Below, in pieces: positions 34,232-54,051 of a DNA stretch of 64,000 nucleotides. Both the position numbers and the translations under genes were made by a program. The DNA is from Polynucleobacter sp. UK-Gri1-W3. Lineage in GTDB: Bacteria > Pseudomonadota > Gammaproteobacteria > Burkholderiales > Burkholderiaceae. The stretch covers positions 62,001-126,000 of the forward strand of contig NZ_JACVQA010000008.1 in the NCBI RefSeq assembly GCF_018881595.1, written 5' to 3'. Numbering within the stretch: the stretch's first letter is position 1; every line of letters starts with the position of its first letter. The notes beneath the pieces are model-generated. The model was given only the letters and a program-made list of their open reading frames with translations. It was not told the DNA's origin and made no database searches.

Positions 34232-34440
34232 CTCATTTAAGTCCAGATAAGCCCCATTTCAAGCGCTCGGTATCATATTTGCCTGCGCGACAACCAGATA
34301 GCGATACTTATGTTTCGCATCTAATCAGGTTGATGCAAGTCGGAATATCAAAAGACTGGTTGGCGGCAATCGGCCTCAAGTTACCAAATTCAGTAATACC
34401 CTACTTATGCAGAGTATTTGCTTTTGCTTTTTGTGGATAA
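34232..34440 (+). other. Possible degraded ORF in the island
   Basis: No valid gene is seen, but one plus-strand frame stays open to the TAA at 34438 (segments SHLSPDKPHFKRSVSYLPAR and LIRLMQVGISKDWLAAIGLK) without a convincing start. The short YFSHLSPD string is reminiscent of tyrosine-recombinase C-termini, but this is too little for a call. Confidence 0.2.
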
Positions 34441-34470
34441 GATTATTTTATTGTGAATTATTCAACCCAG

Positions 34471-34505
34471 TTGCTTGCCCTCATATATTTATGTACAATG
34501 TACAT
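34471..34505 (+). promoter_or_regulatory. brnT promoter with overlapping operator
   Basis: TTGCTT (34471-34476) and TACAAT (34494-34499) are 17 bases apart. A perfect palindrome ATGTACA-A-TGTACAT (34491-34505) covers the -10 box. The predicted start of transcription falls at about the brnT ATG (34506), so the message may be leaderless. BrnA-type antitoxins repress their own operon. Confidence 0.6.
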
Positions 34506-34784
34506 ATGACTTCATTGAGATTTGAATGGGAGCCCCGAAAAGCTTCGGTTAACCTGAAAAAGCACGGCGTTTCGTTTGAAGAAGCGAAATCTGTGTTTTC
34601 TGATGAGGGTGCCAAATTAATTTCCGATCCCGATCATTCGGAAGATGAAGACAGATTTATTTTGCTAGGCGTAAGCCACGCACTTCGGACAATTTTGGTT
34701 TGCCATTGCTATCGAAGTGAAGGTAATGTCATACGTATTATTTCGGCTCGTAAGGCGACGCCTAAAGAGTCAAAAGCTTATTAA
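34506..34784 (+). CDS. brnT: BrnT-family ribonuclease toxin
   Basis: A 92-residue BrnT toxin, a RelE-fold ribonuclease. It shows FEWEPRKASVNLKKHGVSFE, then DPDHSEDEDRFILLGVSHA and the C-terminal VIRIISARKATPKESKAY with conserved Arg and Lys. I chose ATG 34506; the ATG at 34491 lies in the operator palindrome. The antitoxin gene follows 11 bases later. Confidence 0.9.
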   Translation: MTSLRFEWEPRKASVNLKKHGVSFEEAKSVFSDEGAKLISDPDHSEDEDRFILLGVSHALRTILVCHCYRSEGNVIRIISARKATPKESKAY

Positions 34785-35899: not shown

Positions 35900-37129
35900 A
35901 TGAAAACAAAGCCTATAAATCAGCATAACTTATCTTCTGATTTAGCCATTCGTGACGAGTTAGAAAAGCGAGGCTGGGCTTTATCCGCACTTTCAGAAGC
36001 GGCTGCTGCACTGGCACGTGCAAACTCTACTGAGTTATTGATTCAAGAGGTTTGTCAGGCGATTGCTGCACAAGGTCCATACATTCTTGCTTGGGTGGGA
36101 CAAGCTGAGGGTGACGCCTTTAAGACCGTCAAAGTAGTTGGGGTTGCTGGGGCTGCCTCTGGCTACATTAAAGATATTGTGGTGAGCTGGTCCAGCGCTG
36201 AAGTAACCGGACGCGGACCTGCAGGTAGTTGCATTCGAAATAATAAAACGAGCGTAGTTATCGATGGTGAAATCGATCCTGGATTTGTTGCTTGGCGCGA
36301 GCATGCCAAGGGGTTTGGAATTCGCTCGGTAATCGGTTGTCCAATTCCTGATGGTATTACTGGGATACCCTTTGGTGTACTGATGGTGTATTCGAAAGTT
36401 CCGAATACATTTAGAGCTTCTGAAGTTCAGTTATTTGAAAGTCTTGCTAAAGAGATTGGATTTGGACTGCGCTCTATTGAACGTCAACATAAGTTAGATG
36501 ACCAAATTCATGAAAAAGAAGTAACGCAAGAGCGCCTTGCAACTGCATTACGCGCAACTATTGAGGCTATGTCCAAGACTATGGAGTGGCGCGACCCCTA
36601 TACTGCCGGTCATCAAAAGAGGGTAGCTAGTATTGCGATGGCTATTGGCCGTCAATTAGGTTGGGACAATGAGCGTATTCAGGCTATCTATATGGCAGCA
36701 ATGGTGCATGACATTGGCAAGATGGCAGTGCCATCAGAAATTTTGACCAAGCCCTCACGATTGACTGACCTGGAAATGCAAATGGTGCAAGGGCACGTAG
36801 AGGCTGGCTATCAAATTCTGAAGGATATTCCATTTCCCTGGCCAATCGCGGATATGGTGCGCCAACATCATGAGCGTTTAGATGGCAGTGGTTATCCGCT
36901 GGGTTTGAAGGATGAGCGGATCAGCCAGGAGGGAAGGGTATTGGCCGTAGCCGATACGATCGAGGCAATGGCAACTCATAGACCTTATCGGCCTGCTAAG
37001 GGATTAAATTCAGCAATGGATGAAATTCAAGCTGAGGCAGGTACCAAGCTAGATGCGAAAGTTGTTGAGGCTGCATTTAAGTTGCTTGAAGATGGAAATG
37101 AACTGCAAAATATATTAGATACGCATTAA
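35900..37129 (+). CDS. GAF + HD-GYP c-di-GMP phosphodiesterase
   Basis: A 409-residue cytoplasmic protein: a GAF sensor domain (about 30-195; GFGIRSVIGCPI, FGVLMVYSK), a helical linker and a C-terminal HD-GYP domain (about 215-395). The metal and substrate residues are present: GHQKRVASIA, HDIGK, GHVEAGYQIL and HHERLDGSGYPLGL. It should hydrolyse c-di-GMP. It is two bases from the next diguanylate cyclase gene, so the same operon makes and degrades the signal. Confidence 0.88.
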   Translation: MKTKPINQHNLSSDLAIRDELEKRGWALSALSEAAAALARANSTELLIQEVCQAIAAQGPYILAWVGQAEGDAFKTVKVVGVAGAASGYIKDIVVSWSSAEVTGRGPAGSCIRNNKTSVVIDGEIDPGFVAWREHAKGFGIRSVIGCPIPDGITGIPFGVLMVYSKVPNTFRASEVQLFESLAKEIGFGLRSIERQHKLDDQIHEKEVTQERLATALRATIEAMSKTMEWRDPYTAGHQKRVASIAMAIGRQLGWDNERIQAIYMAAMVHDIGKMAVPSEILTKPSRLTDLEMQMVQGHVEAGYQILKDIPFPWPIADMVRQHHERLDGSGYPLGLKDERISQEGRVLAVADTIEAMATHRPYRPAKGLNSAMDEIQAEAGTKLDAKVVEAAFKLLEDGNELQNILDTH

Positions 37130-37131
37130 AG

Positions 37132-37965
37132 ATGACGATTAAATGGATTGCACTCGGCGCGTATTATTTGGCATTACTTGCGCAAGTTTTTGCAACGATT
37201 TTTGCGCTCAAGATATTTTTTAAATCAAAAGCGTATCGCCTGGCTAGCGGCTCCTTAGCTCTCGGTTTTGGCTTAATGGTAGGGAGGCGGATTACTTCTC
37301 TTCTGCATTTTTATCTAGATGGTTACTACAACCTCTTGGATGCAGCCTTGGCCTTTTCTATTTCAGTACTGCTTTTTCTGGGGCTGATGCAAATCAAAAA
37401 AATTATTTTAGAGTTAGAGGAAAAGAATTTCCTGCTTGACCATATATCAAAGACAGATTCATTAACTCAAGCTTTAAGTCGATTGGAAACTTTCCATCAA
37501 GCAGAATTGGAGATTGAAAGATCTTTGCGCAATGGGGAGCCGGTAGCCTTCCTTATGCTCGATATTGACCACTTTAAAAATATCAATGATGAGTATGGCC
37601 ATCCGCTAGGCGATATCGTTCTGACAAATCTTGTGAAGCACTGCCAAAAAGAGCTCCGTGTTATTGATATTTTCGGGCGCGTCGGTGGCGAGGAATTTTT
37701 CGTTGTTTTGCCAGGGGATGATATCGGGAGTGCTTTTGAGGTCGCTGAGCGCTTGCGTAAAAGGGTGTTCTCTACCCCTTCAGCTCTTGTGGGTGGTAAA
37801 GAAATCTTTATATCAATCAGTATCGGCGCCGCTAGTTTCAGCCCCAAAATGGATGGAGAGACCAAGTCCAGTCTGGTTTTAAGGACTTTTTATGCCAAAG
37901 CCGACCAAGCCATGTATGCAGCTAAGTCTAAAGGCCGTAACCGAACGGAGATTTGGACTCAATAG
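37132..37965 (+). CDS. Membrane diguanylate cyclase (GGEEF)
   Basis: A 277-residue protein with three to four N-terminal membrane helices (about 5-85) and a GGDEF domain. The active motif is GGEEF (RVGGEEFFVVLPG). An RxxD inhibitory site (RVID) stands five residues upstream, so product inhibition is likely. Its place between an HD-GYP gene and dgkA, in the same tight run as bcsA, points to control of the glucan synthase by local c-di-GMP. Confidence 0.88.
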   Translation: MTIKWIALGAYYLALLAQVFATIFALKIFFKSKAYRLASGSLALGFGLMVGRRITSLLHFYLDGYYNLLDAALAFSISVLLFLGLMQIKKIILELEEKNFLLDHISKTDSLTQALSRLETFHQAELEIERSLRNGEPVAFLMLDIDHFKNINDEYGHPLGDIVLTNLVKHCQKELRVIDIFGRVGGEEFFVVLPGDDIGSAFEVAERLRKRVFSTPSALVGGKEIFISISIGAASFSPKMDGETKSSLVLRTFYAKADQAMYAAKSKGRNRTEIWTQ

Positions 37966-38005
37966 GCTAATAAAATAGCTTATATTCCTAATAAAATTGA
38001 TAGCA

Positions 38006-38350
38006 ATGCCAAAAAAGAGAAATATTATTCATGCAACTATCAATGCGATTGATGGCGTCAAAGAACTCGTCCTTCAAAAGGCGGCCCGTAGAGAGTTAAT
38101 TCTTGTGGTGATTGCCATCGGATTTTTTTGTTATCGCCCAAATGTGTATACCGTATTAATGGCTGTTCTATCCCTGGTTTTGCTAGCGGTTGAAGCGCTT
38201 AATACGGCCATTGAAAAGATCTGCGATCTCATTACCTTGGAAGAGCATCCTGAGATTAAAAAGATCAAAGATCTTGGTGCGGCAGCAGTGATGATTATCG
38301 TGTTGGCTATTGGTCTCATCTTTATTCGCTACTTATCTCCATTCTTCTGA
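38006..38350 (+). CDS. dgkA: Diacylglycerol kinase DgkA
   Basis: A 114-residue three-helix membrane kinase that phosphorylates diacylglycerol to phosphatidic acid. It has the family signature LLAVEALNTAIEKICDLI and the N-terminal NAIDGVKELVLQKAARREL. I chose the ATG at 38006 over the TTG at 37997. Its stop overlaps the next start (TGATG). In this operon it may recycle the diacylglycerol released by BcsG. Confidence 0.9.
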   Translation: MPKKRNIIHATINAIDGVKELVLQKAARRELILVVIAIGFFCYRPNVYTVLMAVLSLVLLAVEALNTAIEKICDLITLEEHPEIKKIKDLGAAAVMIIVLAIGLIFIRYLSPFF

Positions 38351-39042
38351 TGAGGAACTTTTTAAGCGCCTTTCATATACATATCATCCCTAGGAGTGAT
38401 ATGGAGTCACCGGATGAATCATCTCATCAAGCCATTCGAGACAAGGCACTTCTTTTAATTGCAAGAATTTGTAGAGATTTTCGCGGCACAACCTTTGAAG
38501 AGTCTCGCGAAAAAATCATTTATTCATTTGAGCAAATCAGTTTCGCAGCACAAGCGGCTATGGCTATTCAAATAGAGGCTGATGCAACGAATGCAAAAAA
38601 TCATTCAGACCCTATATGTTTGGCCTCGATTGGGATTGTTTCTCTGATTAATCCATTTACTGGACTCAAGGAAGAAGAGCGCTCTATCCAATTGGCATCC
38701 TTCATGGCTGAGGCTGCTGGCCCTGGAGAGCTTTATCTATCTGAGGGCGCGCATGATTCCTTAAAAAACCCAGATGCACTTCTGTGTCGCTTTACACGAC
38801 AGCTACTGAGAACGGGTGAGGATAGAGCCCTCAATGCCTATGAAGTTTTTTGGAATCCAACCGAGGTTGATCCAGGAAGGCTCCATCAAGATCCCAGTGC
38901 TATCGATTTGGAGCTTCAACCGATTCGCTCCTTTGGTCTGAAATTGGTTGCTGGGATTTTGCTATTGTTCTTTTGTGTGCTACTGCTTACTGTGGGCTAT
39001 GAAGCCCTATGGGAGTGGTTTATTTATATGGTTAATCGCTAA
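38350..39042 (+). CDS. Degenerate nucleotide-cyclase-like protein with C-terminal membrane helix
   Basis: A 230-residue protein. Residues about 30-180 have the outline of a class III cyclase fold (SFEQISFAAQAAMAIQIEAD, then EERSIQLASFMAEAAGPGEL-YLSEGAHDSL and NAYEVFW), but the metal-binding Asp residues and the GDG segment are not seen, so it is probably non-catalytic. A single membrane helix (about 198-222, LKLVAGILLLFFCVLLLTVG) ends it. It overlaps both dgkA and bcsA starts, so it is almost certainly part of the same system, perhaps a regulatory or assembly subunit of BcsA. This is inference. Confidence 0.6.
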   Translation: MRNFLSAFHIHIIPRSDMESPDESSHQAIRDKALLLIARICRDFRGTTFEESREKIIYSFEQISFAAQAAMAIQIEADATNAKNHSDPICLASIGIVSLINPFTGLKEEERSIQLASFMAEAAGPGELYLSEGAHDSLKNPDALLCRFTRQLLRTGEDRALNAYEVFWNPTEVDPGRLHQDPSAIDLELQPIRSFGLKLVAGILLLFFCVLLLTVGYEALWEWFIYMVNR

Positions 39043-41774
39043 TGTTTTTGCGCGATCGTCACTCCAGAATCACTGCAAGCTTATTGATGTTTGCCGTTGG
39101 TATTGGCGTCATGATTTACTTCGCTGAGGAATTACTCAATCTTGGCGGCCAGCTCTATTTAGGTTGGGGCTCTTTTTTCATCATCTTCCTAATGTCGAAG
39201 GTGAAGTATTTCCGTAATCAACCTTGGCGTTCTGTATTCATTGTTCTAGCGCTCTTTGTTAGTTGCCGTTATATGGCATGGCGTATTTTTGACACTTTAA
39301 TTTATAACGGTTTCTTTGACTTTATCGGCACCGCTCTGTTATTCCTGGCAGAGCTGTATGGCTTTACCTTATTCCTGCTAGACATGTTTGTGAACTTCTC
39401 GCCAATGTCTAGTGAAATCGTTCCCTTATCTCAAGACGAGTCTTCTTATCCCTCTGTAGATATCTTTATTCCTACTTACGATGAGTCTGAAACTATTGTT
39501 CGCATGACGGTGACGGCTGCGACTCAGATTCAATACCCTAAAGAAAAGCTCAATATTTACATCCTGGACGACGGCGGGACCCATGCCAAGCGTCGCAGCA
39601 AGGAAACGGGTCATCAAGCCTGGAGGCGCCATTACAGCTTGAGAAGACTCGCCAAAGATCTGGGTGTGCATTACATCACCCGCGATACCAATCAAAAAGC
39701 TAAAGCTGGAAATATCAATCACGCTTTGCAGCATAGCAAAGGTGAGCTGATTCTCATTTTGGATTGTGATCAAATACCAACCAAAGATATTTTGCACAAT
39801 ACAGTAGGGCAGTTTTTAAGCGATCCCAAAATGTTTTTGGTGCAAACACCGCATTTCTTTATCAATGAAACTCCAGTCAATAACGTGATTACTGGCGTTT
39901 CTAATCGCCCGGATGAGAGCGAGATGTTTTATCGCAAGATTCAGCCTGCCATGAATTTTTGGAACTCTGCCTTTTTCTGTGGCTCCGCAGCGGTACTGCG
40001 CCGTCAGTACCTCATGGAAATAGGTGGTATTGCCATTAAGACAATTACGGAAGATTGTGAGACATCACTTATTCTCCATGCGCATGGATATAACAGCAGC
40101 TATATCAATAAACCCATGGTCTGCGGTCTTTCTCCAGAGACTCCATCTGACTATCTGACCCAGCATTCACGTTGGGCCAAGGGGATGCTTCAGATCTTGA
40201 TGCATTACAACCCCTTGTTTATGCGTGGGCTCAGTCTGCCACAGCGTTTGGCATATTTTTCTTCGTCATACTCGTGGCTTTTTGGATTTGCACGATACAT
40301 CTTTTTCTTGGCGCCATCAGCCTTCTTAATTTTAGGCCTTAATGTGTATTCAGCCAATTGGCACGAGATGGTGGATTTCACGGTGCCTTATGCGTTGAGT
40401 ATTTTAGTGGTGATCTCATACTTCTTTGCTGGTTCGCGTCAACTCTTCTTCTCGGAAATTTATGAAACTGTGAAAGGTTTTAGGATGATTAGAGAGCTCA
40501 TGCCGGTTCTTCTAAATCCTTGGAAGCAAAAGTTTCTAGTAACGCCAAAAGGCCTTACCTTAGAAAGAGAGCAGCTTAGCTGGGATGCCTTCCCATTATT
40601 TATCCTGGTAACTATCAACGCCGTTTCTATTCTTATTGCTGCTCTTCGCTGGCATTACGAGCCTATTTGGCATGACAACATCGTCATTACCGCAATATGG
40701 TGTTGTATCAATATTTGGTTGGGCTTAATGTCTCTAGGCGCCTTTTGGGAAAAGCGTCAAGTCAGAGCTTATTACCGAATTGGTGGTGGTGGGGCAGTGA
40801 GGGTTCTTCGTGGTAATGGCCTACCTGTTATCGAAGCAAATTTAGAGGATGTTTCAGTAAGTGGCATCGGGTTTGTTCTTCCATTTAACACGGACCTAAA
40901 AGTTGGCGAATCCATTCAATTAGCCGTGAATGATAGTTATGGAAACCACTATAAATTTATGGCAAAAGTAGTTCGTATGCTAAAAGAGACTGACCATTAT
41001 TTTTGCGGTACACAGTTTGTCGCTGAACAAATTGGTAGCCCTGAAGCCATTGCCTTCGTTTATGGAGATAGTGGTCGTTGGCAGCACATTTGGGATGCTA
41101 GTGCGGAACTCAAGCATTCAAAGCTTCAGTTGTATTTGTTAACGAAGTTAGGGCTGAAGGCGGTACGCGAAAACTCTGCGGGCTATTTTGCTTACATCAC
41201 AAAAAGTCTAGGCGCTTTTATCGTGATGCTATTTAATCCCTATGTTTGGTTTTATGCGATCACTGGCTTAGTCAATTGGATTATTTATCTACTTTATTTA
41301 TTCGTGGTCTATACCATTGGCTTAGTCGATCATGAGCAGGCAAGAACCTTTCCACGCTTACAGGCTGGAGAGAGAATGACTCTTTATTTCCCCAAGCTTG
41401 ATGCTACCTTGGAAGGCTGGCTCTTTGATATCTCACTAACTGGCGTTGGTATTAAAGTCAATCTACCTTTCTTAATTGACGATAACGAGTTAATAGAAGT
41501 TTTTGTATCTGGAGTCTTGAAATCACAGCAACGCATGGATTGCATTATTCGCCGAGTAATTAAAACCGGTGATGAAGTAATATTAGGTGCAGAATTTATC
41601 GTAGATAACAGCAACTTCTTCAAGATTGTGAGCTTCGTTTATGGCCAAGGTTCAAAGATGGTATTTTCATTGGCGATTCAGAATTTAAGGCGAATTCTGT
41701 CCTACCTCTTTTTCATCGGTGAGTTGTCGGATGAACGCAAGAGTCTCGCTTCCTCTAAGCCCTTGGGTAAATGA
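39042..41774 (+). CDS. bcsA: Cellulose synthase catalytic subunit BcsA with two PilZ domains
   Basis: A 910-residue membrane glycosyltransferase of family 2. In order: membrane helices (about 10-120), catalytic domain with LDDGGTHAKRR (about 176), DCDQ (about 240), FFCGS (about 313), TEDCE (about 336) and QHSRW (about 374), more helices (400-560), a PilZ domain from about 573 (RAYYR, then DVSVSG), two further helices (about 715-760) and a second PilZ-like region from about 766 (RTFPR, then DISLTG). The usual BcsA has one PilZ domain. It makes beta-1,4-glucan when c-di-GMP binds. It overlaps the next gene by 44 bases. No bcsB follows. Confidence 0.9.
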   Translation: MFLRDRHSRITASLLMFAVGIGVMIYFAEELLNLGGQLYLGWGSFFIIFLMSKVKYFRNQPWRSVFIVLALFVSCRYMAWRIFDTLIYNGFFDFIGTALLFLAELYGFTLFLLDMFVNFSPMSSEIVPLSQDESSYPSVDIFIPTYDESETIVRMTVTAATQIQYPKEKLNIYILDDGGTHAKRRSKETGHQAWRRHYSLRRLAKDLGVHYITRDTNQKAKAGNINHALQHSKGELILILDCDQIPTKDILHNTVGQFLSDPKMFLVQTPHFFINETPVNNVITGVSNRPDESEMFYRKIQPAMNFWNSAFFCGSAAVLRRQYLMEIGGIAIKTITEDCETSLILHAHGYNSSYINKPMVCGLSPETPSDYLTQHSRWAKGMLQILMHYNPLFMRGLSLPQRLAYFSSSYSWLFGFARYIFFLAPSAFLILGLNVYSANWHEMVDFTVPYALSILVVISYFFAGSRQLFFSEIYETVKGFRMIRELMPVLLNPWKQKFLVTPKGLTLEREQLSWDAFPLFILVTINAVSILIAALRWHYEPIWHDNIVITAIWCCINIWLGLMSLGAFWEKRQVRAYYRIGGGGAVRVLRGNGLPVIEANLEDVSVSGIGFVLPFNTDLKVGESIQLAVNDSYGNHYKFMAKVVRMLKETDHYFCGTQFVAEQIGSPEAIAFVYGDSGRWQHIWDASAELKHSKLQLYLLTKLGLKAVRENSAGYFAYITKSLGAFIVMLFNPYVWFYAITGLVNWIIYLLYLFVVYTIGLVDHEQARTFPRLQAGERMTLYFPKLDATLEGWLFDISLTGVGIKVNLPFLIDDNELIEVFVSGVLKSQQRMDCIIRRVIKTGDEVILGAEFIVDNSNFFKIVSFVYGQGSKMVFSLAIQNLRRILSYLFFIGELSDERKSLASSKPLGK

Positions 41775-44700
41775 TCCCTTGAGAATAAGAGCTCTTCATC
41801 TCTGCTTTAGTTTTGTGCTGATCTCTTCAATTGGGGTGGTGGAATTTGTCTACGCTTCTGATGCAACCCTCAGTAGACAAGAGATTGCAGAGGCCAGAAG
41901 GGCGCTAACCCAGGCCACCATTCTTCAAAAAAGTGGCAAGTCGGCAGAGGCAAATGCATTTCTCAAGGAGAAGTTTCCTAATGGCCCGCCTGCAGGCGAT
42001 TTGGCAGTTGGCTATTTCAAAATTATCGCTAGCTTGCCGGGCGGCTGGAATGAGGCGCGCGCGGGATTGGAGGGGTTGGTTAAGTCTGACCCCAAAAACT
42101 TGCAATACACCTTGGCATTAGATACCTTATTAGGTTCAAATCTGGAAACCCGTGATATGGCTTTCCAGAATTTGGCTGAAACCTATAAAGTTCGCAAAGT
42201 GGATAAGCAGCGCGTTCTTCAAGTTTGGCGGGAAGTACTTAATGCGCAAGAGCCTGGTCCAGAATTGCTCCCGTACTATCAGAAGTATCTAGAAGTAGAT
42301 CCGCACAATCAAGAAATCACCGGCAGATGGATTCTGGAGAAGGATGTCCTTGCTGAACGTAAACGTATTGCGAGCGACCCCTTGCTTAAACGGCGGCAGG
42401 TTGGTTTGGATTTGTTGGATAAGGGTGACATCGTAGGGGCGGAGGCGCCACTGCTAGATACGCTTAAAGAACGCCCAAAAGATTATTTAGCATTAGGTGG
42501 TATGGGCGTTATTCGGATGAGACAAGGTAACTATGATGAGGCGGTTGCTTACTATCAAAAAGCTTTGGCGCTGAATCCAGAAAATAGCGGCAAGTGGAAG
42601 AGTCTGATATCTACCAGTCAATACTGGTTACAAATTCACCAGGCTGAGGATGCAAGGGATAAAAAGAATTACCCCTTGGCAATGGAGAAAATTCGAGCAG
42701 CTATTAATCTTGAGCCACAAGGTGCAGAAGCTATTGCTGTATTGGGAACTATTGAGGCTGAGCGAGGTAATACCAAGGAGGCTGAAAAACAGTTTCGAGA
42801 AGCCTTAAATATTGAGGCGGATAACGGTATTGCACTTCGTGGTTTAGTCCAATTGCTTATTAAAGCAGGTAAAGGTGATGAGGCATTAGCCTTAATTAAT
42901 TCACAGGCATCTGCTAATAGCTCTGCTGGTAAAGGCTATGATTATTTGCGAGTCAAGATTTTAAGTTCGCAGGCAGATGACTTGGTAAACAAAGGGCGTG
43001 CTATTGATGCCATTCCTTATCTACAGAGTGCGCTCAAGCTAGAACCAACCAACCCTTGGTTACGATTTCAGCTAGCTGGGATCTATGAGACCTCAGGCTC
43101 TATCAACAAAGGCTTGGCAGTAATGAAGGAGGGCTTGCGTCTGGCTCCCAATGATCCGGAAATGATTAACGCCAACGTACTGTTCTTATTAAGCGCTGAT
43201 AAAACTGATGAAGCCCTGAGCCTGATGCGCAGTGCATTGGCTAAACCCTCTTCCGATGTAACATCATTGCGCTTAACTTATGCCAATGTGCTCAATCGCC
43301 TGCAGCGTGATGATGAATTAAGTCCCGTGTTGCAACAGCTGTCAAAAACCCAATTATCAATCAGCGATAAGAAAAAATATACTCAGATAAGACTGGATTT
43401 TGAGATTCGCCAAGCCCTTCAAGCAGGCGATACTCAAAAAGCCATTACGCTTTTGCAACAAGCAATTGCACTCGATCAAGATGATGTTTGGTTGCGATTA
43501 GATTTAGCGCGTTTATACGCAAAGGTACATCGCCCAAAAGAGGGCATTGCACTATTCGACGCTTTCCTCAAAACCCATCCCAATAGTGTTGAAGGCTTGT
43601 ACGCCTATGCCTTGTACTTATCTGCTCTTGATCAAAATCAACCAGCCCTAAAGGTGTTAGAGCGCATTCCTACACCTGAGCGAACCCCAAAAATCACTCG
43701 TTTCCAAAGAAGTGTTTGGGTAGATCTTCAATTAACTCAGGTAAGCAGAGCAAATGCCCAAGGAAATCAAGCCAAGGCAATTGCTCAGCTAAGTGCTCTC
43801 GAAAATGAGGTATCCAATGATCCCGACCTTTCTTCCTTGGTTGCGCTGATGTGGGGAAAGATTGGTAAGGTAGAACAAGCTAATGCTCTCTTTGAGAAGA
43901 TTGAGCAAAGCACTCCAGACCTCTCTGTTGAATGGCATTTACGTTATGCCAATTACCTTCTCAATAATGATCAGCCCGAGGCATATCAGAAGGAGATGTT
44001 CCTGATATCTAGTCAAAAATTAAGCCCAGGTCAAAAGCAAGATTACGCAGATCTTCAGGAGACGGCTGAGCTCAGAGCGATCGGTCAGTTTATTAAGAGT
44101 GGCGATATTCAAGTGGCTAAACAAAAGCTACAACCGCTCATTTCTGTAACACCGAATAATTACAAGATGATGTATTTGGACAGCCAGATTCAAAGGAGAG
44201 AAGGTTACCTAGATAAAGCAATCGATATTGAGCAACGTGCGCTTGCTCAATCTCCGGTGCCAATCTCTAGTTACCATAGCCTTTCTACACTCAAACCGGC
44301 TGCAAGTTCATCAGGCGTTTCTGTGTTTCAGATTGACCCACCCATTTTGGAGCCCTCAGCTGTCTCATCCGGAAGTGCATACCAATACAGGCAAATGGCC
44401 GACATGATAGAGATGCGTTCCAATTGGCTTGATTCAGCTATAGATTATTTATCTCTCAATGGCACTCCAGGGCAGTCTTATTACCGGGCGACAGAAATTC
44501 CACTGGAGTGGAAGATGCCGATACGCTCCGATGAGCGCATTACTTTCCGAGCCGATCAGGTCAATATCAATGCTGGCACTATTGACGCAGGTAATGTATA
44601 TCAAGTTAGTACCTTTGGCACCATGGCCACTGTTTGCGGCGGAGGAGCCGGTACTGGGAAATGCCCAACTGGCTACTCAAATCAATCTGCCTCAGGTACC

Positions 44701-45558
44701 GCTATCAATATCGGATACGAGAAGCAAAACTTCAAGGCTGATATTGGCACAACACCCATTGGCTTTCTTACCCAGAACTGGATAGGCGGAGTCAAGCAGA
44801 GGTTAGATGTAGGTCCTGTTGGAGTCTCGTTAGAGTTGGCACGTCGCTCCATGACCAGCACCTTACTTTCTTATGCGGGAACTCGTGATCCTGTCACTGG
44901 ATCCGTTTGGGGAGGCATGATCGCAACTGGTGGAACGATTGGCTTAAGCTTAGACCAAGGCGGAACTCTTGGGGGCTGGACCTACTATCGAGCGCGTAGC
45001 CTCACTGGTACGAATGTTCAGAGTAATAGTGATAATCAATTCATGGCTGGCCTGAACTGGCGCATTATTAATGAAACAGATCGCCAACTCTCGAGCGGTC
45101 TTACCGGAATGCTCTGGGGCTTTAAACGAAATGCTGGTGAGTTTACTTATGGGCAGGGTGGTTACTACAGCCCACAAAGCTATCGCTCTGTAACCCTTCC
45201 TTTAAATTATTCTCAGCGTTTTGCTCGCTTCTCCTATGTTATCAGTGGTTCGGTATCGACCAATTGGTCTCGCACTGATGCAGCGCCTTACTTTCCGACC
45301 AATACTCAATATCAGGCGGAGTCAAACAACGCTACGTATTCCGCAAGCTCAGGCCCTGGTAGTGCATATTCTGCTTTGGCTGCTTGGGAGTACCAGGTCA
45401 CGCCATCCGTTTTCGTTGGTAACCGCTTGAAGTTGGAGCGTTCGCCTTACTATGCTCCAAATAGTTTTGTCTTGTATGTCCGGATCATGCTTGATGGCAA
45501 TTCACCAAATCCAGTGCCACTGCAAACCCAACCAGTAATACCGACATCTCGCTTTTAA
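41731..45558 (+). CDS. bcsC: BcsC-like TPR and outer-membrane export protein
   Basis: A 1275-residue protein with a signal sequence (about to YASD), a long TPR solenoid (about 50-850; repeats such as GNYDEAVAYYQKALALNPEN) and a C-terminal beta-barrel (about 930-1275) ending in Phe, the usual mark for outer-membrane insertion. BcsC threads the glucan through the periplasm and outer membrane. The ATG at 41731 lies inside bcsA; GTG 41719 is an alternative. It directly follows bcsA, in the place where bcsB is normally found. Confidence 0.88.
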   Translation: MNARVSLPLSPWVNDPLRIRALHLCFSFVLISSIGVVEFVYASDATLSRQEIAEARRALTQATILQKSGKSAEANAFLKEKFPNGPPAGDLAVGYFKIIASLPGGWNEARAGLEGLVKSDPKNLQYTLALDTLLGSNLETRDMAFQNLAETYKVRKVDKQRVLQVWREVLNAQEPGPELLPYYQKYLEVDPHNQEITGRWILEKDVLAERKRIASDPLLKRRQVGLDLLDKGDIVGAEAPLLDTLKERPKDYLALGGMGVIRMRQGNYDEAVAYYQKALALNPENSGKWKSLISTSQYWLQIHQAEDARDKKNYPLAMEKIRAAINLEPQGAEAIAVLGTIEAERGNTKEAEKQFREALNIEADNGIALRGLVQLLIKAGKGDEALALINSQASANSSAGKGYDYLRVKILSSQADDLVNKGRAIDAIPYLQSALKLEPTNPWLRFQLAGIYETSGSINKGLAVMKEGLRLAPNDPEMINANVLFLLSADKTDEALSLMRSALAKPSSDVTSLRLTYANVLNRLQRDDELSPVLQQLSKTQLSISDKKKYTQIRLDFEIRQALQAGDTQKAITLLQQAIALDQDDVWLRLDLARLYAKVHRPKEGIALFDAFLKTHPNSVEGLYAYALYLSALDQNQPALKVLERIPTPERTPKITRFQRSVWVDLQLTQVSRANAQGNQAKAIAQLSALENEVSNDPDLSSLVALMWGKIGKVEQANALFEKIEQSTPDLSVEWHLRYANYLLNNDQPEAYQKEMFLISSQKLSPGQKQDYADLQETAELRAIGQFIKSGDIQVAKQKLQPLISVTPNNYKMMYLDSQIQRREGYLDKAIDIEQRALAQSPVPISSYHSLSTLKPAASSSGVSVFQIDPPILEPSAVSSGSAYQYRQMADMIEMRSNWLDSAIDYLSLNGTPGQSYYRATEIPLEWKMPIRSDERITFRADQVNINAGTIDAGNVYQVSTFGTMATVCGGGAGTGKCPTGYSNQSASGTAINIGYEKQNFKADIGTTPIGFLTQNWIGGVKQRLDVGPVGVSLELARRSMTSTLLSYAGTRDPVTGSVWGGMIATGGTIGLSLDQGGTLGGWTYYRARSLTGTNVQSNSDNQFMAGLNWRIINETDRQLSSGLTGMLWGFKRNAGEFTYGQGGYYSPQSYRSVTLPLNYSQRFARFSYVISGSVSTNWSRTDAAPYFPTNTQYQAESNNATYSASSGPGSAYSALAAWEYQVTPSVFVGNRLKLERSPYYAPNSFVLYVRIMLDGNSPNPVPLQTQPVIPTSRF

Positions 45559-45571
45559 TACACTGTAGACA

Positions 45572-45982
45572 ATGAACAAACGAATCTCATCGCCAATATT
45601 GCTTCTCGTGATGGGTTTGCTCGCTTGCTCAATTCTGAGAGCTCAGCCATCGAATGTTGCCCCTGAGTTTGATCCCTATCTTCCAGGCGAATTAAATGAA
45701 AGAGCGCTCTATGAATTAAAGGATGGTGATATCTCCACTGCAGTAATTCTGCTGGAGCGGGCTTATCGCTTAAATCCCCACAGCCCTGATATCAAGGCTA
45801 ATCTAGAAATAGTAAGGAAGATTGATCAGGAGAAATCTGCCATTCAAGTCAATGGGGAGGTGGTCTACCTAGATGCACTTGGCAATACGCTCATTCCTGA
45901 AAAAACTCTAGATGTTCCAGCGCTGTGGCCGGAAACCCAGCCTAACCGTAGCCTTAATCCTAATCCTAAGCCAAAGCCCTAA
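45572..45982 (+). CDS. Small secreted TPR-type protein of the bcs operon
   Basis: A 136-residue protein with a signal peptide (a lipobox-like LLAC is followed by SILRAQP, so either lipoprotein or signal peptidase I cleavage is possible). It has one TPR-like unit (NERALYELKDGDISTAVILL-ERAYRLNPHSPDIKANL) and a Pro/Asn-rich tail (NPNPKPKP). It starts 13 bases after bcsC. I do not recognise a named family; it may be a periplasmic partner of BcsC. Confidence 0.6.
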   Translation: MNKRISSPILLLVMGLLACSILRAQPSNVAPEFDPYLPGELNERALYELKDGDISTAVILLERAYRLNPHSPDIKANLEIVRKIDQEKSAIQVNGEVVYLDALGNTLIPEKTLDVPALWPETQPNRSLNPNPKPKP

Positions 45983-45990
45983 TTAAGGTG

Positions 45991-47535
45991 CTAATTATTC
46001 GTTTCGAATACATTCCAGTTGATATCGTTGGAACGGAAGTAGTAAGAAGCACCAAACTTCATGATGACTGAGTCTTCGTTCTCAGCAACAAATCGGGTAC
46101 TAGGGATATTTTTTAAATAGGTTTCAGGTGAGGCAGCTGCAGCACCAAAGGGAACTTTACCCACAAACTTCGAAATCAAATCCGATGCAGCAAGATAGCT
46201 TGTTGGCTGCTCAATGACATTGGTTTTCATAGGTGTATCTGCTTTGCCAGTGAACATGATGCCAACGGGAATATTGGTCACATTTGGACTTGGGATTTCT
46301 CGCATACCCGTAATTTCATTCTTGTTTCTGCGGATCGCTGCACCATGCTCAGGAATGAAAACAATCACCACTTGTCGACCAGAGCTATTTACCTTGGTGT
46401 AAAAACGATCAACATCACTTAATAACTTACGCGCTCTGCGGGAGTAGGTTTCTACGCTGTTTTCTAGCTTGCCACCATCCAGCGCACGATTACCATCATG
46501 CAATGAGATCGTATTGTAGAAAAGGGCGACCCGTTCATTGGGGGACTTCATGCGCGCATCCCACCAATTCGATAGCACGGAGTAGTCATCATAAATTTGC
46601 GAACCGTCAAAACCTCTTAGGTAAGGGGTGGATTGCGTGTTATCGAATAGTGGGGCAGACATACCGCCCTCATTTCTGATTTCCTTAAGGAGATCTCCAT
46701 ATTTGCCATCATGATTTAAAGCAAGCTGTACCTGAAAGCCAGTTTTATTCAGGTTACTAAAAAGCAAGGAATCTTCGACAGGAGGTTTGTATAAATCCCG
46801 CTGGTCCTGCTGACCACGACTACCGCGTAATAAACGAATAATTGAAGGGCCACTGTAGGAAGATGCTGAATTAAAGTTGGTAAATAAATAATGGAAGCGT
46901 TGGAAAAGTGGATTGTTATCTTCTTTAATGTATCTCAGATCATCCCAAGCCAGCGAGCAGACATTAATCACCAGTACATCAAATGGAGCGCCGCTGGCCT
47001 TTTGAGAGCGATTGAATGCAGTCCGAGAGGCCTCTTCAATAAAGAAGCCATCAAGCGACTCTGTGAGTGCTGTATCGCTTGGTAGACCAATCACTTGGCC
47101 GTCTGCATCATAGGCCAATGGTGCCATCTTGGCTCCCAACGGAAGCAAAGTGCTCAAGATGGCTAATGAGGCTATTGTTGTCATTCTCAACTTCTTGGAA
47201 AGCAGGAAGTAAAAAAGATATAGACCCAGCAAGATGGCTATGACTCGCCAATCTAAAATTCGGATTAAGAGCTCTAAGTAATACTGGTAGCTAAAGTCTA
47301 GCAACTGACTAATTTTGGGAATGATATTGCGAAGCGGTGGCAGCGGGCTATCGAAGTAAAGTAGAGCGATGCCAGTAGGCAATGCTACCCATTTACGAAT
47401 TCGTAGCAAGGTTGGATTAGCATGGGAAAAAATTAGAAATAGCGCAAAGGCAGCATTAACAAAAAAATGGAAATGTATATAGCCTGTATAGAACAGGATA
47501 ATCTTAATGAGGAAATAGAAATTCCAAATTCCCAT
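45991..47535 (-). CDS. bcsG: Cellulose phosphoethanolamine transferase BcsG
   Basis: A 514-residue inner-membrane enzyme: about five N-terminal helices (to about 150) and a periplasmic alkaline-phosphatase-fold domain. The zinc and nucleophile residues of BcsG are all present: Cys in INVCSLAWDD (about 190), Ser in NSASSYSGPS (about 225) and Glu-His in PEHG (about 396). BcsG moves phosphoethanolamine from phosphatidylethanolamine to glucan, giving diacylglycerol as by-product. It follows bcsZ by one base and converges with the bcsA operon. No bcsE or bcsF is visible. Confidence 0.88.
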   Translation of the reverse strand: MGIWNFYFLIKIILFYTGYIHFHFFVNAAFALFLIFSHANPTLLRIRKWVALPTGIALLYFDSPLPPLRNIIPKISQLLDFSYQYYLELLIRILDWRVIAILLGLYLFYFLLSKKLRMTTIASLAILSTLLPLGAKMAPLAYDADGQVIGLPSDTALTESLDGFFIEEASRTAFNRSQKASGAPFDVLVINVCSLAWDDLRYIKEDNNPLFQRFHYLFTNFNSASSYSGPSIIRLLRGSRGQQDQRDLYKPPVEDSLLFSNLNKTGFQVQLALNHDGKYGDLLKEIRNEGGMSAPLFDNTQSTPYLRGFDGSQIYDDYSVLSNWWDARMKSPNERVALFYNTISLHDGNRALDGGKLENSVETYSRRARKLLSDVDRFYTKVNSSGRQVVIVFIPEHGAAIRRNKNEITGMREIPSPNVTNIPVGIMFTGKADTPMKTNVIEQPTSYLAASDLISKFVGKVPFGAAAASPETYLKNIPSTRFVAENEDSVIMKFGASYYFRSNDINWNVFETNN

Positions 47536-47536
47536 A

Positions 47537-48547
47537 TTACTTTTTCAGATCCTCTAGAGCCATTTTAGTAAATAAAGACAGCATTGATGAGTAATAACCT
47601 TGCGATGGATTAAAGCTTGGTAGTTGAGTCTTCTCTACATCAGGGTAAGCAAGCGCCATAGCTGCAATGCTTTGGAACCCTTCAGATGCATTGTACGTTG
47701 CCATTTCACCAGTCATAACATTAATCCAGGCGGGCGGCATTTTGCCGGCATAAGAGCCCCAGTAGTGTTGAAAAGGTTTTATGAAGGGTAGAGAGGCCTG
47801 CTTTCCCCAAATTAAATACAGGGGGATTCTGACTGCGTCATACCCAAATCGATCGTCATCCGTAGGACCGATCCTCTCACCCTCTAATACCAGCCAATCT
47901 GGAGGCAATTGCCATTTCCCAAATCTCGCTTCTTGAATCAGCTTTAGGCCGGTTAATCGCAGATCTTCCCATTCCGGAGCAGGGTCTAATCTAGATAATT
48001 CCGCAATCGCCGGAAATACCCAATAGGAGAGGTTGAGTTTTAAGCCATCTGGTTTTTCAAAACCCGCTGCACCAGGTAGCAAAACTGTTCCTTTATTAGT
48101 TTTGCGCAAGAGCTTTGCTCTAATGGACTGGCTTATTTGGATGGCGTTAAATAAATAGCTCGGTTCATTCCATTTGGTATAGGCACACGATAAGGCCCAT
48201 GCAATAAATAAATCGCCATCACTGGCGTTATTCATATCATTGATGCCTACCTGCGGAGACCAGCTCCAGGCAAACAGTTTATCGTCGCGCACTTGTAGAT
48301 TTTGCTGTGTCCAGCTCCACACTTGGGAGAATGTTTCAGGGTCGTTATTTTGTACTGCAAGAAGCAAGGCCATGCCTTGACCTTCGGTATGGCTTATAGC
48401 GTTTTGGCCTTTATCAATAACCCGACCATTCTCCATAAATTCGGATTTAAATTGGGTCCAATCATCCGTCCCAAACGCAGTCGACGAACAGAAGAGCGCA
48501 AAAAGAAAACTCAAGAGCCAAAATCGTAGAAGGGTACGCCTAGTCAT
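47537..48547 (-). CDS. bcsZ: Endo-beta-1,4-glucanase BcsZ (GH8)
   Basis: A 336-residue secreted GH8 glucanase. The signal peptide ends near STAFG-TDD. The acid Glu is in HTEGQGMALLLAV, the subsite Asp in NASDGDLFIAWAL, and the base Asp in FGYDAVRIPLYLIWG. In Bcs systems it trims the chain in the periplasm. It is the first gene of the minus-strand bcsZ-bcsG pair, divergent from the HD-GYP gene at 48664. Confidence 0.9.
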   Translation of the reverse strand: MTRRTLLRFWLLSFLFALFCSSTAFGTDDWTQFKSEFMENGRVIDKGQNAISHTEGQGMALLLAVQNNDPETFSQVWSWTQQNLQVRDDKLFAWSWSPQVGINDMNNASDGDLFIAWALSCAYTKWNEPSYLFNAIQISQSIRAKLLRKTNKGTVLLPGAAGFEKPDGLKLNLSYWVFPAIAELSRLDPAPEWEDLRLTGLKLIQEARFGKWQLPPDWLVLEGERIGPTDDDRFGYDAVRIPLYLIWGKQASLPFIKPFQHYWGSYAGKMPPAWINVMTGEMATYNASEGFQSIAAMALAYPDVEKTQLPSFNPSQGYYSSMLSLFTKMALEDLKK

Positions 48548-48663: not shown

Positions 48664-49974
48664 ATGCAGTTAGCTAATCAAACCTTTTACTTTGCTGTAT
48701 TTATCATCCTTGTAGGGCTGATGGCCCGATTCTTGGCGAATAAGGATGACGATCGCTCTCAGTTTAGGGTAATTTACTGGCCCGCAGGCTTGAGCTTTCT
48801 GGCCGCCTCTATGTTGGGCTTTGCCACTGCTCCATGGGGTGGCATGCTTGTCTTGGCCTTGGCGAATATCTTTTTGATCGCCGCCCTCGCCAATATTTCC
48901 CTATTGTTTAGTTGCTGGAATGAATCTCTACAGAGATCGAGTAAGGTTGCTGCTGGCACCTTGTTTGGCGGTGCCTCCGCAATCTATATCTACTTACAGT
49001 TTTTTGGGGAAACAAAAGACCGTATTCAGTTAATGGACATTGTCCTGATTATCTTTTGTATTTGGCAGATTGTAGCCTTGAGTCAGTTGCTCAAAAAAGA
49101 TAACGCCTATCAAATTAAAGTATTGCTTGGTGTCGAGTTTATTCAGCTTGGGGCTCGCATCATTCGCTCACTTTTAGCACTTAATGAAGTGGACTATCCT
49201 GGCACGCTTTACCACGAGAGTGGCTGGGCATTTGTAATGCGTATAACCTCAATCCTTGCGATTGCTACGATCTGCATCCTGATTACCAATTACTACATAG
49301 AAAAGCTGTGGCATGAATATCGACGTAGCTCACGTGCGATTGAGGATGGGATGCTTAATAGTCTAAATGTACTTTCAATGGTGCGAGATAACGAAACAGG
49401 TAACCATATTCTCCGAACAAAGAATTATGTACGCGCTTTAGCAGAAAGACTTAGCTCTAGCGGTGCTTATGCAAACGAATTGTCTAAAAGGGATATTGAA
49501 AATATTGTGAAGGCCGCCCCCTTGCATGACATAGGTAAGGTTGGTATCCCGGATACCATTTTGAAAAAATCAGGATCGTTGACAGACGAGGAGTGGCAAG
49601 TGATGAAGACACATGCCACTCTTGGGCAAGATGTTTTAACTGCCGCCAAGCTGAAGGACGCCTTAGATACCGATGTATTAGATGCTGCAATCCAGATTGC
49701 GGGCTGTCATCATGAATGTTGGGATGGCTCTGGCTATCCGCGGGGGCTAAAAGGCAAAGAAATTCCCTTGCCAGCTAGGCTGATGTCCTTGGCTGACACC
49801 TATGATGCTTTGGTCAATGAACGGGTTTATAAAAAGAAGTGGTCTCATGAAGAGGCTTGCTTGGAGATTGCTAGGTTAAAAGGTCTTCGTTTTGACCCTC
49901 GTATTGTCGAAGCTTTCATTTTCGAAAAAGACAATTTCTTGAGGATCTCTGAGCTATATAGAGACTCGATATGA
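48664..49974 (+). CDS. Membrane HD-GYP c-di-GMP phosphodiesterase
   Basis: A 436-residue protein: about seven N-terminal membrane helices (residues 5-215) and a C-terminal HD-GYP domain with NHILRTKNYV, HDIGKVGIP, THATLGQDVL and HHECWDGSGYPRGLKG. All catalytic motifs are kept, so it should degrade c-di-GMP. It overlaps the following diguanylate cyclase gene by ATGA, which repeats the HD-GYP + GGDEF pairing at 35900-37965. Confidence 0.88.
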   Translation: MQLANQTFYFAVFIILVGLMARFLANKDDDRSQFRVIYWPAGLSFLAASMLGFATAPWGGMLVLALANIFLIAALANISLLFSCWNESLQRSSKVAAGTLFGGASAIYIYLQFFGETKDRIQLMDIVLIIFCIWQIVALSQLLKKDNAYQIKVLLGVEFIQLGARIIRSLLALNEVDYPGTLYHESGWAFVMRITSILAIATICILITNYYIEKLWHEYRRSSRAIEDGMLNSLNVLSMVRDNETGNHILRTKNYVRALAERLSSSGAYANELSKRDIENIVKAAPLHDIGKVGIPDTILKKSGSLTDEEWQVMKTHATLGQDVLTAAKLKDALDTDVLDAAIQIAGCHHECWDGSGYPRGLKGKEIPLPARLMSLADTYDALVNERVYKKKWSHEEACLEIARLKGLRFDPRIVEAFIFEKDNFLRISELYRDSI

Positions 49975-51524: not shown

Positions 51525-51587
51525 GCCTTATATTTACAAGTTAATTGTTTGCTGAGTAAAGCCTGATGTATTGGAGGATCATTGTTT

Positions 51588-52373
51588 ATGAAAAAATTTG
51601 AGACCCCCAAAATTCTTTTAATTCCATTGATTAGTATTGGGCTCTTGTTCATAGTGCTTAGATCAGCTCCAAGTCAAAGCGCACCAAGCTCAACTATTCC
51701 TACATTGCAAATCGGTAACTTGATCTGGGATCAAACAGAGATGAACATTGCTGATGTTAAGGCTTATGCAGCCTCAACCGGATTTGTTAGTGCTGCGGAA
51801 AAGAAGGGCGGCGGCTTGTCGTATGAATATGGCTTTGTTCAAAAGCCGGGATGGACCTGGAAGACCCCCTACGGTGTACCTGCAAAAGATTCTGAGCCAG
51901 CAGTGCATCTAAACCAAACAGAAGCAGAATCGATTTGTCGCTATTACGGCAAACGTTTGCCTACTGAATCTGAATGGACTAATGCAGCTTTCTTAGAACA
52001 AAGAGCGAGTCCTCCCGCTGGATATACGAAGGGTCAGCGTTACCCATATCCGGGAGGCAGCACTCCCGCGGTATCCCATTGCCTCAGTGGTTGTGGTGAC
52101 TACAAGGGGCTCGCACCGGCTGGCGCCCTGAATCGTGGTACTGGGCACGTTATTGCTGGTTCAACAAAGCCTGGCGTCAACGGATTGTTTGATATGGGTG
52201 GAAATGTTTGGGAATGGACATCAACAGAACGTAATGGCGGATATATCACTCGAGGTGCCTCATGGTGGTATGGCCCTGAGAGACAGCAAGAAAGCGATGT
52301 GGAATCTAAACCAGGTGATATTGCCGTGGTTTACATTGGTTTTCGGTGTGTCGCCGATGCCGTGAAACAATAG
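51588..52373 (+). CDS. SUMF1/FGE-fold secreted protein
   Basis: A 261-residue protein with an N-terminal signal or anchor helix (about 8-25) and a formylglycine-enzyme-like domain (AESICRYYGKRLPTESEWTNA, GLFDMGGNVWEWTSTE, ITRGASWW, IGFRCVAD). The cysteine pair that binds copper in true FGE is not in the expected place: the ITRGASWW region lacks Cys. It is therefore probably not a sulfatase activator, but one of the many structural or binding SUMF1 proteins. ATG 51588 is used, with GGAGG ten bases before; TTG 51582 is possible. The helicase gene follows after three bases. Confidence 0.75.
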   Translation: MKKFETPKILLIPLISIGLLFIVLRSAPSQSAPSSTIPTLQIGNLIWDQTEMNIADVKAYAASTGFVSAAEKKGGGLSYEYGFVQKPGWTWKTPYGVPAKDSEPAVHLNQTEAESICRYYGKRLPTESEWTNAAFLEQRASPPAGYTKGQRYPYPGGSTPAVSHCLSGCGDYKGLAPAGALNRGTGHVIAGSTKPGVNGLFDMGGNVWEWTSTERNGGYITRGASWWYGPERQQESDVESKPGDIAVVYIGFRCVADAVKQ

Positions 52374-53721: not shown

Positions 53722-53750
53722 TTGACGCTCTTCTGTTTATGTAATTACAT
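53722..53750 (+). promoter_or_regulatory. mazE promoter with overlapping palindrome
   Basis: TTGACG (53722-53727) and TTACAT (53745-53750) are 17 bases apart. A perfect palindrome ATGTAATTACAT (53739-53750) overlaps the -10 box, as expected for an autoregulated toxin-antitoxin operon. Transcription would start only a few bases before the ATG at 53761, so the message may be nearly leaderless. Confidence 0.5.
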
Positions 53751-53760
53751 TGTTATTACT

Positions 53761-54051
53761 ATGAACAAAGACCATAAATCCAATGTTGTAACCAGCGCAC
53801 CACTGCAGGTGGCCATTAGAACTATTGGCAACTCTAAAGGCGTGGTCATCCCAAAGATTATTCTTGAGCAATCTGGAATACGGGAGATTGTGGAGATGTC
53901 GGTAGACGGAGAAAAAATCGTTCTAAGTAAGCCTAAAAATGCCATTAGAGAACATTGGGCTCAAGACGCGCAAAGTCTTGCGAAGCTTGGTGAGGATAAA
54001 TTGCTACTTGGAGATTTTGCTAACGATGAAGATGGAGATTGGGTTTGGTAA
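53761..54051 (+). CDS. mazE: MazE-type antitoxin (AbrB fold)
   Basis: A 96-residue antitoxin: N-terminal AbrB/MazE DNA-binding fold (VAIRTIGNSKGVVIPKIILE, EMSVDGEKIVLSKP) and an acidic toxin-binding tail ending DFANDEDGDWVW. ATG 53761 is preferred; a TTG at 53722 would lie inside the promoter. It overlaps the toxin gene. Confidence 0.85.
   Translation: MNKDHKSNVVTSAPLQVAIRTIGNSKGVVIPKIILEQSGIREIVEMSVDGEKIVLSKPKNAIREHWAQDAQSLAKLGEDKLLLGDFANDEDGDWVW

Follow-up and report, generated by a model that had tools for sequence, protein, structure and literature searches.

Background

Cellulose synthases that lack the membrane-anchored subunit BcsB have been described in cyanobacteria (PMC12430437) and in Streptomyces (PMC11022532), in both cases with other partners, and an apparent loss of bcsB in Zymomonas was explained as a fusion of BcsA with BcsB (PMC7112194). 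The present text concerns a cellulose synthase (bcs) locus of the freshwater bacterium Polynucleobacter sp. UK-Gri1-W3 that encodes the catalytic subunit BcsA and the export protein BcsC but no BcsB, and whose BcsA carries a C-terminal extension that is probably a duplicate of its own last transmembrane (TM) helix and PilZ domain. The locus lies in a stretch of 64,000 nucleotides (contig NZ_JACVQA010000008.1, positions 62,001 to 126,000), hereafter called the window, within which all positions are counted.

With the type II bcs system of E. coli (BcsRQABEFG plus BcsZC) the Polynucleobacter locus has BcsA, BcsC, BcsZ and BcsG in common, but it is without BcsB and BcsE, and its BcsA has a second TM-PilZ module. 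BcsG and BcsE are given as features of type II systems (PMC11470070); the former is present here, whereas BcsE (PF10995) was found in 0 of the 13 genomes that carry the Polynucleobacter locus, with a control that does match E. coli. The Polynucleobacter BcsA also lacks the N-terminal region of its E. coli counterpart, on which the match begins only at residue 179; E. coli recruits BcsG through the N- and C-terminal domains of BcsA (PMC11379886).

The cyanobacterial type IV bcs and XcsA-HlyD systems resemble the Polynucleobacter system in having BcsA without BcsB. They differ in the company that BcsA keeps: HlyD-like proteins, BcsW and TolC are named for the cyanobacterial systems (PMC12430437), the Polynucleobacter locus has BcsC, BcsG and BcsZ, and no HlyD-like Pfam match occurs among its cluster genes, to which the search for HlyD was confined. 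The CslA-GlxA system of Streptomyces is likewise a synthase without BcsB that responds to cyclic di-GMP (c-di-GMP) and in which a TM anchor is thought to be important (PMC11022532), whereas the Polynucleobacter system would export its product in the Gram-negative way, through BcsC. No Pfam match to a GlxA-type copper oxidase was seen among the cluster genes, which again mark the extent of that search.

Our searches of open-licence papers yielded no description of a BcsB-less system of the Polynucleobacter kind and nothing relevant on a BcsA with two PilZ domains. One paper (PMC5018217) lists a 'cellulose synthase operon protein C' and a 'catalytic subunit' for P. asymbioticus QLW-P1DMWA-1, with three other strains lacking both; on the two occasions where cellulose comes up, BcsB does not. 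The first-pass annotation of this DNA had proposed that the combination is an undescribed variant, a view that the absence of BcsB from all 13 carriers and the lack of a description in the open-licence literature support. Our results likewise support regarding the Polynucleobacter system as a BcsB-less variant with a probable TM-PilZ duplication, the extension being newly noticed here.

BcsB is missing from all carrier genomes searched

The catalytic subunit passes the CelA equivalog cut-off of TIGR03030 (727 bits against 699.1) and aligns with solved BcsA chains, best with 5ej1 (E = 2.6e-115). In the alignment with these chains the GT2 motifs, the gating loop and the c-di-GMP motifs of PilZ are in place. 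Together with the BCSC_C match of its neighbour, this bears out the earlier claim that the locus has BcsA and BcsC. The other half of that claim, that BcsB is absent, holds for the whole genome (2.30 Mb in 22 contigs, rated 100% complete), where a six-frame search with the BcsB profile PF03170, the check that the first-pass annotation had proposed, gave no match; among 14 control genomes the same search matched two, E. coli and B. subtilis. Because all six frames were covered, the search should also have revealed a fusion of BcsB with some other gene.

Twelve of 151 genomes of the genus, the window's own counted, carry a full-length BcsA at an identity of at least 81%, and a search at family level added a thirteenth carrier (G407). 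PF03170 matches five of the 151 genus genomes, and none of these five is among the 12 carriers; G407 has no BcsB match either. Four of the five BcsB-bearing genus genomes have a distant canonical BcsA (34-36% identity), and in the fifth, G141, BcsB lies on a short contig and no BcsA match is listed. The genomes of eight named Polynucleobacter records are also without BcsB (0/8), although seven of them are apparently already among the carriers, the new one being Polynucleobacter sp. 80A-SIGWE (L052). A bcsB gene elsewhere in the genome and conserved together with the locus would have undone the claim; it was sought across the 13 carriers and not found.

Three explanations for the missing subunit can be rejected. 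A BcsB masked by divergence should be reached by a profile built from the BcsBs of 11 relatives, yet this profile finds nothing in any of the 13 carriers at E <= 10. Note that the match of this profile to one control, G084 (5.9e-190), was guaranteed, since G084 is one of its 11 rows; the independent control is E. coli BcsB, which it finds at 4e-109. A fusion of BcsB to BcsA or BcsC is seen neither in the six-frame search of the whole genome nor in the domain make-up. Lastly, an assembly gap is rejected given the completeness of the window's genome and the fact that five of the 12 carriers are single contigs, all of them without BcsB.

As a separate observation, two Polynucleobacter genomes, G043 (C15) and G100 (C83, C86), each have two canonical bcsA-bcsB pairs; one of the two bcsB copies in G100 is cut by a contig end.

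Make-up of the locus

The cluster and its immediate neighbours are made up as follows.

35900-37129, plus strand: GAF and HD-GYP protein, probable c-di-GMP phosphodiesterase (Pfam HD_5, 8.5e-42; GAF, 1.4e-11)
37132-37965, plus strand: GGDEF protein, probable diguanylate cyclase (Pfam GGDEF, 2.4e-34)
37997-38350, plus strand: DAGK_prokar, small membrane diacylglycerol kinase (Pfam, 1.7e-20)
38350-39042, plus strand: cyclase-like membrane protein P0001, predicted degenerate class III cyclase-homology domain with one C-terminal TM helix (fold match, no family match)
39042-41774, plus strand: bcsA, UDP-forming cellulose synthase catalytic subunit, with GT2 core, TM helices, first PilZ domain (PilZ1) and C-terminal extension (TIGR03030)
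40749-41111, plus strand: PilZ1 of BcsA, with c-di-GMP motifs R575xxxR579 and D603xSxxG608 (PF07238, 4.2e-9)
41112-41771, plus strand: C-terminal extension of BcsA, a putative hydrophobic hairpin (about residues 713-762) followed by a second PilZ domain (PilZ2; R768xxxR772, D796xSxTG801) (hydropathy, PF07238, hhalign)
41779-45558, plus strand, probable TTG start: bcsC, periplasmic TPR solenoid and outer-membrane barrel (BCSC_C, 4.3e-102; TPRs)
45572-45982, plus strand: small protein with one TPR-like motif (weak TPR_14, 8.4e-4) and, by eye, a signal-like N-terminus
45991-47535, minus strand: bcsG, cellulose phosphoethanolamine transferase (PF11658, 6.8e-168)
47537-48547, minus strand: bcsZ, GH8 endoglucanase (PF01270, 5.8e-61)
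48664-49974, plus strand: HD-GYP protein (Pfam HD_5, 1.2e-31)

The plus-strand genes thus run GAF-HD-GYP, GGDEF, DAGK, P0001, bcsA, bcsC and small TPR protein; bcsG and then bcsZ follow on the minus strand, and next comes the other HD-GYP gene, again on the plus strand. BcsG scores 558.7 bits against TIGR03368, above the cut-off of 410.2, and aligns over almost its full length with solved BcsG (9b8v, E = 6.8e-109). BcsZ and its E. coli counterpart share 28% identity across 335 columns.

The first-pass annotation had bcsA and bcsC overlapping. That the two genes adjoin stands, but the overlap is probably an artefact of start-codon choice. The longest open reading frame of bcsC opens at 41719, inside bcsA, while in 11 homologous loci the BcsC match begins at query residue 20-21 in seven cases, at 44-46 in two and at 2 in two. 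We read the overlap as an artefact because an in-frame stop just upstream rules out the long start in eight of these 11 loci; in the other three (L019, L020, L029) the frame is open upstream. The part of BcsC that is common to the homologs begins, in the window, with a TTG at 41779, 4 bases past the bcsA stop; this is the probable start, so that the genes would adjoin without overlap.

Further out, genes for a BrnT-type toxin and a MazE-like antitoxin flank the cluster, at 34407-34784 and 53722-54051, and a gene of the formylglycine-generating enzyme (FGE-sulfatase-like) family at 51582-52373 adjoins a dCache-GGDEF gene.

BcsA probably carries a duplicate of its own TM-PilZ module

After the usual C-terminal helix, BcsA continues for about 200 residues, comprising a hydrophobic stretch (713-762), which reads as a hairpin from its hydropathy, and PilZ2. 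The two PilZ domains are the only PilZ matches in the genome, and the c-di-GMP motif residues of both are invariant in 12 aligned rows. The extension was found in 13 of 398 genomes at family level, all in one genus, and in three of 398 at phylum level, all Polynucleobacter.

Where does this extension come from? In profile comparisons it aligns with the last TM helix plus PilZ1 of the same protein at a score of 57.3, which none of 200 column shuffles reaches (best 24.9). It aligns better still with the corresponding TM8-PilZ region of BcsA from metagenome-assembled genomes (MAGs) of betaproteobacteria: with that of locus L054, hhalign gives a score of 79.4 over 130 ungapped columns at 28% identity (probability 97.6), and with that of L055 a score of 64.2, the third MAG locus, L056, being absent from these comparisons. 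PilZ2 as a fused domain of YcgR type is rejected, E. coli YcgR reaching 18.0 against the 79.4 of the MAG BcsA. Since the extension aligns with the TM8-PilZ region of BcsA, its own and that of MAGs, but not with YcgR, it probably arose by duplication of the last TM helix and PilZ domain of BcsA itself. Searched against solved structures, the extension profile had no match at E <= 1.

BcsB was probably lost once, in the Polynucleobacter lineage

The closest BcsAs found beyond the genus are those of the three betaproteobacterial MAGs (L054-L056), at 43-44% identity. A search of 369 genomes at class level gave 22 besides the window's at E <= 1e-60. All 16 non-Polynucleobacter class genomes whose BcsA scores at least 339 bits have BcsB, as do one of six class genomes with weaker BcsA matches and all three MAGs, and bcsB directly follows bcsA in the nine nearest loci examined (three MAGs, six class genomes). 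In a maximum-likelihood tree built quickly from 37 BcsAs, the 10 BcsB-less Polynucleobacter rows form one clade (Shimodaira-Hasegawa-like approximate likelihood ratio test, SH-aLRT, 100), which is sister to the MAGs (SH-aLRT 99) and nested among BcsB-bearing BcsAs. Note that the columns of the extension were removed from this tree by a 60% fill rule, that SH-aLRT is its only support measure and that some outer branches are long; it omits the fragments G407 and second G043 copy as well as the carriers G071 and G134. Because the BcsB-less clade is nested among BcsB-bearing ones, the ancestor probably had BcsB, which was then probably lost once, in the Polynucleobacter lineage.

The MAG loci resemble the Polynucleobacter locus in having a BcsC-like gene nearby and an adjacent cyclase-type protein with a TM tail. 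They differ in that bcsB directly follows bcsA and in that L054 and L056, as aligned, have no second PilZ; BcsG was not found within the stretch examined around them.

The five BcsB-negative class genomes with weaker matches (G711, G579, G815, G598, G830; 210-258 bits) hold distant BcsA-like proteins and may harbour other BcsB-less synthases, with the proviso that two of them are only about 80% complete.

The locus is conserved, with BcsA under purifying selection

The genes for DAGK, P0001, BcsA, BcsC, the small TPR protein, BcsG and BcsZ occur in the same order in 12 of 12 loci of the genus (the window plus 11), and locus L106, from G407, agrees in content and order. BcsA is 81-95% identical between Polynucleobacter carriers and 82-95% identical in the eight named records, such as P. 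parvulilacunae Ross1-W9. Median ratios of nonsynonymous to synonymous differences (pN/pS) relative to the window are low throughout BcsA (10 comparisons, without G407 and L022): 0.064 for the core, 0.19 for PilZ1, 0.18 for the TM part of the extension and 0.097 for PilZ2. For P0001 the median is 0.22 (nine comparisons, without G407, L020 and L022). Given these low ratios, BcsA and P0001 are under purifying selection and not decaying. Among plasmids, 415 records match BcsA, none over 80% of the query.

The GAF-HD-GYP and GGDEF genes each stand in their usual position in 11 of the 12 loci, the window included, and both are missing there in L026 (G039), where an HD-GYP gene (2708-4015), 56% identical to the one at 48664, takes their place. 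All 12 loci, again counting the window, have the small TPR protein, with 124-136 residues and one weak TPR motif.

The DAGK gene is found in 12 of 12 bcsG-bearing loci compared, the window among them, and in L106. Removal of phosphoethanolamine from a lipid leaves diacylglycerol, which DAGK would recycle, and there may be a link between cellulose phosphoethanolamine transfer and diacylglycerol recycling.

A degenerate cyclase stands before bcsA

P0001, which has no Pfam or NCBIfam match, was modelled with AlphaFold2 at a mean predicted local distance difference test score (pLDDT) of 76.8. Its predicted model has the class III adenylate/guanylate cyclase fold, with adenylyl cyclase 4wp8 as a match in the PDB (E = 1.9e-10, probability 1.00), and ends in a TM helix at residues 190-215. 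The protein is found directly upstream of bcsA in 12 of 12 loci (window counted) and in L106, with the TM helix conserved.

In a two-sequence comparison, P0001 is 25% identical over 104 residues (E = 4e-10) to part of the protein that stands beside the MAG bcs loci. By eye, this relative looks like a class III cyclase, fused in L054 and L056 to a kinase-like half. Its cyclase part still has motifs that are missing from P0001: the segments FTDLKGS, GDGSLSHF and VNTASRFE of L054, which we take to be the metal-binding aspartates and catalytic motifs of active cyclases, are not retained there. With these gone, we reject P0001 as a true cyclase; its predicted model shows a class III cyclase fold that has degenerated, followed by a TM tail, and the protein is probably a signalling pseudoenzyme inherited along with the bcs locus. 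In 274 class genomes, a profile of P0001 turned up no relative at E <= 1e-6 apart from that of the window's genome.

What might take the place of BcsB?

According to PMC11022532, which cites Omadjela 2013, the TM anchor of BcsB stabilises the channel and is enough for activity; this makes the hairpin of BcsA a natural candidate for the same role in cis. We consider it about an even bet that the locus directs c-di-GMP-controlled synthesis and export of cellulose (beta-glucan) without BcsB, with the duplicated hairpin replacing the BcsB anchor. Reading from the genes alone, one may imagine the following. The neighbouring HD-GYP and GGDEF proteins would set local c-di-GMP; BcsA would polymerise UDP-glucose and guide the chain across the membrane in a channel of its own; BcsC would take the glucan across the periplasm and the outer membrane; BcsG would add phosphoethanolamine from lipid, BcsZ would trim, and DAGK would recycle the diacylglycerol left by BcsG. 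BcsB would have been lost and, in the same lineage, BcsA would have gained the duplicate of its last TM helix and PilZ. The added hairpin would pack on the BcsA channel, giving in cis what the BcsB anchor gives in trans, and the two PilZ domains would make activation answer to two c-di-GMP sites. P0001 would perhaps share in replacing the membrane anchor. More tentatively, and at less than even chances, BcsA may amount to a self-sufficient cellulose synthase with a duplicated TM-PilZ module and two c-di-GMP sensors, and BcsA, BcsC and BcsG together to a BcsB-free exporter that spans the envelope.

Several points weigh against this proposal. BcsA is said to need BcsB for its activity, and the first TPR of E. 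coli BcsC to bind BcsB (PMC11379886), so that loss of BcsB removes a tether for BcsC too. In CslA-GlxA, the extracellular part of the partner is needed besides its TM anchor (PMC11022532). PilZ2 barely passes the Pfam threshold of 22.5 bits in the genome-wide search (22.8) and falls short of it when scanned alone (21.1). Seven BcsAs from outside the MAGs, that of E. coli included, score only 15-26 against the extension when tried singly, so that its origin rests on the protein's own sequence and those of the MAGs. The AlphaFold2 model of BcsA (pLDDT 41.9, from an alignment that omits L055 because of unread bases) is too poor to place the hairpin. Finally, bcsC of G099 (L024) has an in-frame stop about two thirds along, and G106, which has no BcsB, retains a broken cluster remnant (L030, G106:C1:960000-979500) close to the same dihydrouridine synthase gene, from which it follows that some lineages manage without the locus.

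The last two cases would also fit a locus that became an inactive relic once BcsB was gone. We regard this as very improbable, as BcsA, its extension and P0001 are under purifying selection (10 and nine pairs) and the gene order is kept in 12 of 12 loci. Which protein, then, might stand in for BcsB? The first-pass annotation had named two candidates beside bcsA and bcsC. One of them, the cyclase-like membrane protein P0001, is still a possible substitute. It is a class III cyclase that has degenerated and ends in a single TM tail: the tail might bind and stabilise the BcsA channel, with the dead cyclase fold as a scaffold or nucleotide sensor. Its constant position directly before bcsA and its conserved TM helix speak for this, as does GlxA, an unrelated TM-anchored protein that serves CslA in the same way in Streptomyces (PMC11022532). 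However, a relative of P0001 stands beside the BcsB-bearing MAG loci, so that its association with the system seems to predate the loss of BcsB, and if its domain is cytosolic, as we infer, the orientation of its TM helix would be opposite to that of BcsB. On balance, we think it unlikely that P0001 is the substitute.

Somewhat less likely still is that the other candidate, the small TPR protein at 45572, or a non-homologous partner encoded elsewhere in the genome has replaced BcsB. The small protein occurs in every locus compared, and a non-homologous protein would be invisible to a profile search; yet the former is small and has no hydrophobic stretch beyond its N-terminus (by eye), and no further large gene of unknown function was found within the cluster or directly beside it. 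A different kind of doubt concerns the product, which might be another beta-glucan, or short or periplasmic, instead of secreted cellulose. BcsZ and BcsC do fall under their NCBIfam equivalog cut-offs (153.7 against 299 and 558.6 against 858), but BcsA and BcsG pass theirs and both a GH8 BcsZ and BcsG are in the cluster, and we hold another product to be comparably improbable. We think that the strongest candidate is one that the first-pass annotation did not contain, the duplicated TM-PilZ extension of BcsA itself, and hypothesise that the hairpin ranks first as a replacement for the BcsB anchor and the TM helix of P0001 second.

Meaning of a BcsB-less bcs locus

A conserved Gram-negative combination of BcsA, BcsC and BcsG without BcsB amounts to a natural experiment on the role of BcsB, and the duplicated TM-PilZ module offers a definite and removable candidate for its replacement. 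The system could also provide a compact chassis for the production of modified cellulose.

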